From: Aureimonas mangrovi
GTDB taxonomy: Bacteria; Pseudomonadota; Alphaproteobacteria; Rhizobiales; Rhizobiaceae
Length of the DNA: 64,000 nucleotides
Direction: 5' to 3'
Assembly (NCBI RefSeq): GCF_014058705.1
Contig: NZ_CP059692.1
Location: forward strand, 3,150,001 to 3,214,000
In this document: piece after piece, positions 44,343-45,568 of the stretch
Numbering within the stretch: the first letter of the stretch is position 1
Layout of the letters: each line of letters starts with the position of its first letter
Program-made: the position numbers and the translations under genes
Notes under the pieces: model-generated
The model's input: the letters and a program-made list of their open reading frames with translations, nothing else
What the model was told of the DNA's origin: nothing
The model's database searches: none

Positions 44343-45047
44343 TTAGAGAGATGCGCGCGCCGCCTCTTCGCGCATCGGCAGGACGGCGCCGACCACGAGA
44401 CGATAGGGCACCAGTCCGAAAAGGGCGATCGCAAGCTTCACCGCGAAGTCACCCAGCGCCCATGAGATCCAACGCGGAGCATCGGCTGCGAGAACGCCGA
44501 GAAGCGGCGCGGCCTCCAGCGCGAAGGGCTCGTTCGGGCCGAGGATGACGAAAAGCGGCGCGAAGGCCAGCGCGAAGAACATCGCGGTGTCGAAGATCGA
44601 GCCGACGACGCCCGCCAGGAACGGCGCCTTCCACCAGGATTGCCGGCGCAGGCGGTTGAAAACGAGGATGTCCATCAGTTGTGCGGCGAGGAAGGCCGAG
44701 CCCGACGCCAGCGCCAGCCGCACGAGGCGCGCGCCGGAAATCTCGAAGGGCATCCAGCCGAGCGCGTAGAGGAGCGGCGGGAAGACGACCGACGAGGCAA
44801 TCGCCGTCGCAAAGCCGAGATACACGACGCGCCGCGCCATGCGCGGGCCGAACAGGCGATTGTTGATGTCCGTGACCACGAAGGCGAACGGGTAGACGAA
44901 CGCGCCCCACGTCAGGATGTCGGCGAGTTGCAGCGCGCCGAGTTGCCCTTCCAGCGGAAACTGGACGGCGATGTTGGCCATCAGGACGATGATCGTCATC
45001 GCGACGACGGGCAGGATGTAAGCGCGCCAGGACGCGGTCGGGCTCAT
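44343..45047 (-). CDS. Queuosine precursor transporter (YhhQ family)
   Basis: A 234-residue protein with about six transmembrane segments and the YhhQ/VUT signature FVVTDINNRLFGPRMARR. The family imports preQ0, preQ1 or queuine, bases used to make queuosine in tRNA. The ATG start is at 45047: an in-frame ATG upstream would put the riboswitch inside the coding region. GGAG of the ribosome-binding site lies in the riboswitch pseudoknot. Confidence 0.93.
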   Translation of the reverse strand: MSPTASWRAYILPVVAMTIIVLMANIAVQFPLEGQLGALQLADILTWGAFVYPFAFVVTDINNRLFGPRMARRVVYLGFATAIASSVVFPPLLYALGWMPFEISGARLVRLALASGSAFLAAQLMDILVFNRLRRQSWWKAPFLAGVVGSIFDTAMFFALAFAPLFVILGPNEPFALEAAPLLGVLAADAPRWISWALGDFAVKLAIALFGLVPYRLVVGAVLPMREEAARASL

Positions 45048-45054
45048 GCCGGGG

Positions 45055-45087
45055 CTCCATTTTTTTAGGCTGGGGTATGGCACCAGC
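45055..45087 (-). ncRNA. preQ1-I riboswitch controlling the queuosine precursor transporter
   Basis: On the minus strand the 33-nt leader has the H-type pseudoknot of preQ1-I: stem P1 GCTGG/CCAGC with the loop TGCCATACC, an A-rich tail (CTAAAAAA), and ATGG that can pair with CCAT of the loop (P2). The ACCCCAG segment matches, from memory, that of the Thermoanaerobacter switch, including the Cys-like C that contacts preQ1. P2 covers GG of the Shine-Dalgarno GGAG, so ligand binding should block translation. Confidence 0.78.
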
Positions 45088-45109
45088 GCGAGAAGCTTAC
45101 GCTCTCCAG

Positions 45110-45139
45110 AAAAAAGGCCCCGCGAAAGACCGCGAGGCC
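45110..45139 (-). terminator. Terminator of rpmB
   Basis: On the minus strand a stem (GGCCTCGCG / CGCGGGGCC, one G-U pair) with loop GTCTTT is followed by six T. It lies 26 bp after the rpmB stop and just before the preQ1 switch, so partial readthrough may supply the transporter transcript. Confidence 0.87.
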
Positions 45140-45165
45140 GTCGATTTCACACCATGATCGGCCGA

Positions 45166-45465
45166 TCAGGCCGCGGCGGCGGTCTCCGAGACCTTCTTGG
45201 CGATCTGGCGCTTCAGGAGACGGGCGCGCTGCGACAGCTCCTTCTCGTCGGCCTTGGCGAGGAAGGCGTCGAGGCCGCCGCGGTGCTCGACCGAACGCAG
45301 AGCGTAAGCCGAGATGCGCAGACGGTAGCGCTGGCCGAGCGCGTCGGAGATCAGCGTGACGTTGCACAGGTTCGGCAGAAAGCGACGACGCGTCTTGTTG
45401 TTCGCGTGGCTGACATTGTTGCCGCTCTGGACGGCCTTGCCGGTCAATTCGCAAGCGCGCGACAT
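45166..45465 (-). CDS. rpmB: 50S ribosomal protein L28
   Basis: A 99-residue ribosomal protein with the standard [20 protein letters not shown] start and [10 protein letters not shown] core. AAGGTG lies 6 bases ahead of the chosen ATG; an upstream GTG is too close to the ribosome-binding site. Confidence 0.97.
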
Positions 45466-45568
45466 GGACTTCACCTTTCAACTGCGACAAACCCCGGCGA
45501 TGCGCCGCCGCTTCTCGAAAGCGGCGCGATCAGCGACCGGGGGACGTGATCTTGGAATTCGAGGGCTG

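Follow-up and report, generated by a model that had tools for sequence, protein, structure and literature searches.

The definition of the type III architecture of preQ1-I riboswitches, and the model for it, are said to come from McCown 2014. The closest described system to the element reported here is the type III riboswitch in the leader of E. coli yhhQ (AUUGGG-UUCCCUCAC-CCCAAU-GGUUAAUC-AAAAAGG), which has been solved experimentally. According to passages of PMC10622847, its ligand pocket comprises U6, C14, the G5-C15 pair, A25, A26 and A27, with a ceiling formed by C8-A28-U11 and A13; P2 consists of the pairs C9-G30, C10-G29 and U11-A28, and U7 holds A27 against the ligand. The same passages report that mutants of U6, C14, C15 and A27 (U7, C15, C16 and A33 in the 36-mer numbering) lose or nearly lose regulation.

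Types I and II of class I (RF00522) share with the element described below a P1 helix, a specificity C beside P1, an A-rich tail and a P2 pseudoknot, but solved examples have longer loops (passages of PMC10622847) and are found mainly with queCDEF and queT genes (passages of PMC11625349). The preQ1-II and preQ1-III classes have the same ligand, and preQ1-II is also associated with queuosine-precursor transport genes, although both have larger folds of other topology (passages of PMC11625349) and neither gives an Rfam match in the window, by which we mean the whole 64 kb stretch of DNA analysed here. Passages of PMC5372724, citing McCown 2014 among others, state that preQ1 riboswitches of several classes govern yhhQ, depending on the bacterium. 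The cited papers locate type III almost only in gammaproteobacteria or Pseudomonadota, whereas the hosts considered here are Rhizobiaceae-like bacteria. An alphaproteobacterial yhhQ preQ1 element is not named in passages of PMC2258182, PMC3766115, PMC5372724, PMC9495176 and PMC1273637, nor does one appear in the titles or opening abstract lines of the papers listed in literature searches; an earlier listing in McCown 2014 is possible.

The leader of yhhQ in the window reads GCUGG-UGCCAUACC-CCAGC-CUAAAAAA-AUGG-AGCCCCGGC-AUG (Table 1), in which P1, the 9-nt loop, the A-rich L3 and AUGG would be able to form an H-type pseudoknot overlapping GGAG. By analogy with E. coli, A25-A27 of L3 are predicted to line P1 and to touch the ligand. 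The initial annotation had described the P1 pairing GCTGG/CCAGC, a CCAT loop, and an A-rich tail with a pairing ATGG, at 45047-45087 between the rpmB terminator and the yhhQ start; all of these parts were located, the coordinates are right with the element on the minus strand, and the placement agrees with a terminator-like hairpin upstream (45139-45116) and an ATG at 45047. The stem of this hairpin ends 28 nt upstream of P1, and no sigma-70-like promoter was found in 44980-45240 around the leader. The motif AUG (45060-45058) lies 13 nt upstream of the yhhQ ATG and is therefore outside the yhhQ frame. The encoded protein scores 85.1 bits against TIGR00697 (cut-off 50.95) and does not reach the cut-off set for PRK11212, a narrower model (105.4 bits, with 252 needed). 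A glyoxalase-superfamily gene (PF19581; 43950-44324, minus strand) follows yhhQ after a gap of 18 nt and may share its transcript.

Table 1. Features of the yhhQ leader and its surroundings in the window (element positions numbered from the first base of P1).
Feature	Coordinates	Strand	Remarks
yhhQ, queuosine precursor transporter, 234 aa	44343..45047	minus	TIGR00697, PF02592 (Vut_1)
yhhQ start codon ATG	45045..45047	minus	basis: reading frame
Shine-Dalgarno GGAG of yhhQ	45055..45058	minus	starts inside P2; 7 nt ahead of ATG
Riboswitch-like element, 31 nt	45057-45087	minus	directly ahead of yhhQ
P1 5' strand GCUGG, positions 1-5	45083..45087	minus	pairs with 45069-45073
9-nt loop UGCCAUACC, positions 6-14	45074..45082	minus	
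Loop parts			U6 = L1; C8-U11 = P2 5' strand; C14 (45074) = predicted preQ1-specificity base
P1 3' strand CCAGC, positions 15-19	45069..45073	minus	
A-rich L3 CUAAAAAA	45061..45068	minus	
P2 strand AUGG, positions 28-31	45057..45060	minus	pairs with CCAU 45077-45080
Terminator-like hairpin after rpmB	45116..45139	minus	10-bp stem and T-run
rpmB (50S ribosomal protein L28), upstream neighbour	45166..45474	minus	TIGR00009

A geometric scan of both strands of the window, requiring a 5 bp P1, a 9-nt loop, an A-rich tail of 6-11 nt and a 4 bp P2, returns two places, one of them the yhhQ element; 30 first-order Markov windows average 0.2, so that on geometry alone the finding is no more than suggestive. 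The energy of single-sequence folding is unremarkable (z of 0.88 for 56 nt and -0.70 for 32 nt), and in the 56-mer the hairpin is missing from the minimum-energy fold and present in the centroid. The case for the element rests on its conservation and covariation among relatives.

We use the term family (f1) for Rhizobium-, Mesorhizobium-, Aurantimonas- and Aureimonas-like leaders, higher groups being named by inference. Model R1, built from 23 distinct sequences, finds the element at E<=8.6e-5 in 162 of the 180 family genomes sampled, with one match in the genome of the window; at E<=0.01 the count is 166, the additional four lying at E 0.0013-0.0084 and two of them being infB-like coding stretches. 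Among the 14 family genomes that give no match at this level, G024 has yhhQ but not the motif (L104). Sampling of the order gave matches in 9 of 10 family members at E<1e-9 and in none of 239 genomes outside the family at E<1e-3, and in a sample of 299 genomes from the phylum all 13 with matches at E<1e-7 belong to the family; these genome searches score a limited number of candidates per genome and may miss weak members. In the leaders of YhhQ relatives the motif is found in 101 of 110, with many duplicates between the two collections, and is absent from L029, L052, L062, L070, L072, L080, L104, L107 and L109; motif-less leaders include those of Roseibium, an Afifellaceae MAG and Methylobrevis. 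Several weak R1 matches (L151, L156, L162, L264, L265 and L341) are coding and were rejected, being read by eye as IF2 (infB); the sequence CTGGTGGCATNACCCAGCA within this infB-like stretch strongly mimics the P1-loop part of the motif and so acts as a decoy. Weak matches in family f216 were set aside as mostly an A-run before ATG, among the matches listed, and four others (L154, L169, L266 and L269) have no explanation.

Distinct-context loci carrying the motif number 151, and in every one of them YhhQ is encoded downstream on the same strand; the association is independent of the way in which the locus was fetched for the 69 obtained via R1, but not for the 82 obtained via YhhQ. Within alignment A2, whose 89 family rows were selected for carrying the motif, U6, C9, A10 and U11 are present in all 89 and C14 in 86, the remaining three having an inserted base that still leaves a C beside P1. 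The A-run is equally constant, columns 30-32 and 34-36 being A in 90 of 90 rows and column 33 in 87. All of the bases essential in E. coli are kept (U6, C15 and A27 in 89/89, and C14 save in the three insertion rows). That unpaired loop bases are conserved to this degree and match the E. coli ligand pocket, and that 151/151 motif loci precede yhhQ, makes it very unlikely that the leader is a ligand-free translation-initiation element or RNA thermometer, in which the A-run would enhance initiation and a weak pseudoknot would tune it, even though the motif contains the start codon or the Shine-Dalgarno, the folding energy is unremarkable, and A-rich stretches ahead of AUG favour initiation.

The pattern defining the 151 loci fixes U6, C9-A10-U11, C14, a paired P1 and the A-run before UG, but leaves positions 7-8 and 31 free, and yet these covary. 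G7C8 occurs with G31 in 30/30 loci and G7G8 with C31 in 78/78, so that the bases at loop position 8 and tail position 31 always vary jointly (C8-G31 or G8-C31) across the 108 G7 loci; in the 43 loci with U7C8, base 31 is A in 28, C in 10, U in 5 and G in none. A FastTree tree was built for 93 YhhQ proteins, thinned from 149 distinct ones, and leaves 38 of its 90 inner branches open. On it the 7-8 type changes eight times and base 31 fits in 93/93 rows, although well-supported branches alone force fewer changes, namely two (GG), three (UC) and three (GC). Independent tree pairs point the same way for GC with G31 (3/3 in the expected direction), and for GG with C31 (n=2) a mean of 1.5 are as expected and 0.5 show no difference; both sets are too few to reach 0.05. 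In the small alignment A1 the proposed structure exceeds all 500 shuffles for cells paired and for covariation score, whereas the single pair changed on both sides is no better than the shuffles (498/500 reach 1). Sliding the structure by +2 gives a covariation score of 0.070 compared with 0.061 for the proposed structure, but pairs only 21.7% of cells.

P1 itself varies little: positions 2-5 are CUGG/CCAG in 88 of 89 A2 rows, and the single compensatory change within the family is CCGG/CCGG in L261. The near-invariant, palindromic CTGG/CCAG might suggest an inverted repeat (CTGG-N9-CCAG) serving as a DNA operator for a transcription factor, an idea that we find scarcely credible given the second, interleaved pairing, whose 8-31 covariation involves the base that follows the motif AUG, the nearly constant distance to the start codon or Shine-Dalgarno, and the close identity to an RNA of known crystal structure. 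A comparison of P1 and P2 across relatives for compensatory changes had been proposed with the initial annotation; it bears out P2, which covaries, and for P1 yields just the change in L261 plus a compensatory difference from the E. coli-like form. A preQ1-I-like pseudoknot that would hide the yhhQ Shine-Dalgarno, as first annotated, is the best reading of the leader, supported by the P2 covariation in relatives, with preQ1 as its presumed ligand.

The comparison with E. coli was made using E. coli and its nearest YhhQ relatives, which belong to the same phylum but another class ("gamma"). Among 31 loci (E. coli and the 30 nearest fetched), GGG-UUCCCU-NNC-CCC followed by an A-run and then GG is found in 28, the exceptions being L184, L193 and L195. 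The Rhizobiaceae-type element and the E. coli type III element share the gene yhhQ, an H-type pseudoknot, a 9-nt loop that begins with U6 and ends with the specificity base C14, G4-G5/C15-C16 atop P1, C9 and U11 of P2, an A-rich L3 with A25-A27, and an initiation signal hidden by P2. The Mesorhizobium-type loop UUCCAUCAC differs from UUCCCUCAC by one base, C10 to A, matched by G29 to U, and the U7C8 form of Mesorhizobium and Aquamicrobium keeps U6, U7, C8, C9, U11, C12, A13 and C14 of E. coli; with equal base frequencies, a match of 8 or more of the 9 loop letters has a chance probability of about 1e-4. As a consequence of the swap from C10-G29 to A10-U29 the tail AGG becomes AUG with the pairing kept. 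The two forms also differ in the third P1 pair (3-17), which is U-A in the Rhizobiaceae-type and G-C in E. coli, in P2 (CAU/AUG as against CCU/AGG), and in the hidden signal, which is the start codon in 127 of 151 Rhizobiaceae-type loci as opposed to the Shine-Dalgarno in E. coli.

Divergence is greater in the G7 forms, to which the window belongs: U7 is lost, A13 is lost in some, and the extra pair 8-31 is gained. The pairing in the window would form the P1 and P2 of the type III H-type pseudoknot, with 10-29 and 3-17 compensatory relative to the E. coli-like form; the specificity C before the P1 3' strand and U6 after the 5' strand are both present, as are the A-rich L3 and the position upstream of yhhQ. 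In place of the type III UU after the P1 5' strand the window has UG (UU occurs in the 43 U7C8 loci of the 151), and in place of AC before the 3' strand it has CC; in the set of 148 loci, A13 is found in 39/39 U7C8 loci with a 2-nt L2, two more having 3 nt. The type III P2 tail AAGG is replaced by A-AUGG, although the P2 strand still holds the start of GGAG. Since UU, AC and AAGG are lacking, the window element is not filed as type III by strict features but as a variant that would work like type III.

The loss of U7, with G in its place in the window as in 108 of the 151 loci, means that the pocket wall differs from that of E. coli, and with the preference of E. coli YhhQ for preQ0 in import (passages of PMC10622847) it could suggest that the same fold, at least in G7 forms such as the window, senses another 7-deazaguanine (preQ0 or queuine). 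We consider this improbable, as the bases reading the guanine-like face and edge common to these compounds (U6, C14 and A27) are retained save in three insertion rows, and the E. coli form is reported to bind preQ0 some 138-fold more weakly than preQ1 (passages of PMC10622847).

At E<=1, a gamma-like type III model (R3, from 8 equal-length sequences of 19 distinct ones) picks up none of the family loci (61 sources, 233 kb). With filters off, on 66 nt, matches are in register but weak, scoring 9.3 bits (E 0.0021) at L019 and 1.8 bits (E 0.2) in the window, and across the whole window the best R3 matches fall away from the yhhQ leader. The Rfam model RF00522 (gathering threshold 39 bits) has no match in the window, nor any up to E<=10 when run on 71 nt of it. 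An expected hit to the preQ1-I model thus failed to materialise, but the 91-nt E. coli yhhQ leader likewise goes unmatched, so the miss in the window does not discriminate. The same model finds no match on Rhizobium and Rhodobacteraceae-like leaders, and among 289 genomes of the class none is over the cut-off, with weak matches (E<=10) in 177 taken as noise; of 14 control genomes one is over the cut-off and ten, E. coli among them, have some match. A type III sequence pattern run on the 289 class genomes matches 27, compared with about 58 for the backward control, and reveals no further group; a repeated pattern case (L311/L312) was rejected, being read by eye as coding sequence.

Two expression platforms can be distinguished by position 19, which is G (part of AGG) in 127 of the 151 loci and C, giving an extra P1 pair, in 24. 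At G19 loci CCAGG supplies an AGG 8 nt ahead of the motif AUG, which lies within the open YhhQ frame in 127/127. At C19 loci, the kind found in the window, 18 of the 24 have a motif AUG that falls outside the open YhhQ frame, and the start is likely to be downstream, commonly by 13-17 nt, with AUGGA as the Shine-Dalgarno. The P2 strand is therefore the start codon in most loci examined, a point missing from the initial annotation, and the Shine-Dalgarno in most Aureimonas loci. In Rhizobium GG-CA forms (e.g. L028:1459-1500) an alternative hairpin, GGUG-GCAU-CACC, could form in competition with P1 and possibly represents the apo state; the CA that it needs is present in 58 of 77 GG loci of the 148-locus set.

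A second compact yhhQ leader, of the form CAAG-(9-12 nt loop with CCG)-CUUG-UNAAAACGGA, is observed in family f48, probably Rhodobacteraceae (L202-L209 and L211-L218). Hand-written patterns requiring the pairing find it in 16 of 17 fetched f48 loci, with two P1 pairs changed on both sides and an invariant P2 (CCG/CGG). RF00522 does not match it (L211), and a model of this leader searched against 220 class genomes at E<1e-4 matches only G082 and G214 (f48) and G199 (f29). It looks like a second preQ1-I-like variant that would hide the Shine-Dalgarno.

The yhhQ leader is a real cis-acting RNA and very probably an OFF switch that senses preQ1 and has the type III architecture of preQ1-I. From the observed anatomy, conservation, covariation, gene association, reading frames and E. 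coli match we infer its ligand, three-dimensional fold and direction of control, and we hold with considerable confidence that it is a minimal preQ1-I riboswitch turning translation off. When plentiful, preQ1 would pair with C14, stack on P1 and lock the P2 pseudoknot, which in Aureimonas would bury AUGG, the start of the Shine-Dalgarno AUGGAG, and in most relatives examined the yhhQ start codon together with the first base of codon 2. With P2 as the start codon and the AGG Shine-Dalgarno at the P1/L3 border, the whole initiation site in these relatives would fall within the RNA. When preQ1 is scarce, P2 would open, YhhQ would be made and the precursor imported.

We think it probable, with less assurance, that the Rhizobiaceae-type represents a distinct preQ1-I subtype in which the ligand-locked helix comprises the start codon and the first base of codon 2, the same strand being the Shine-Dalgarno in Aureimonas, where the start codon has moved downstream. 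If so, the first coding base would be constrained by riboswitch pairing. What looks new is the occurrence in Rhizobiaceae-like bacteria and the start codon in P2 (127/151 loci). In length the natural RNA is comparable to the engineered 30-mer crystallised from E. coli; a description of the alphaproteobacterial core as the shortest natural one was dropped, L178 and similar loci having an equally short L3.

All five family genomes tested encode QueF and TGT. Three of them, G000, G003 and G349, have strong matches to QueC (E about 1e-56). For G427 and G825 the QueC matches reach about 23 bits against a cut-off of 22, cover 60-75 of 210 positions within long frames, and are read as other proteins; these strains may therefore depend on imported preQ0. 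They are possible queuosine users by preQ0 salvage only, the switch being carried by their importer. An importer repressed by preQ1 would fit genomes both with and without QueC.

The shortness of this natural RNA makes it a ready structural target. The loci also offer a natural series for the base-by-base evolution of an expression platform, from the Shine-Dalgarno in E. coli and its kin, to the start codon in most of the Rhizobiaceae-type, and to the Shine-Dalgarno in Aureimonas. The finding would bring a large plant- and animal-associated alphaproteobacterial family, unflagged by Rfam, under type III-like preQ1 control.
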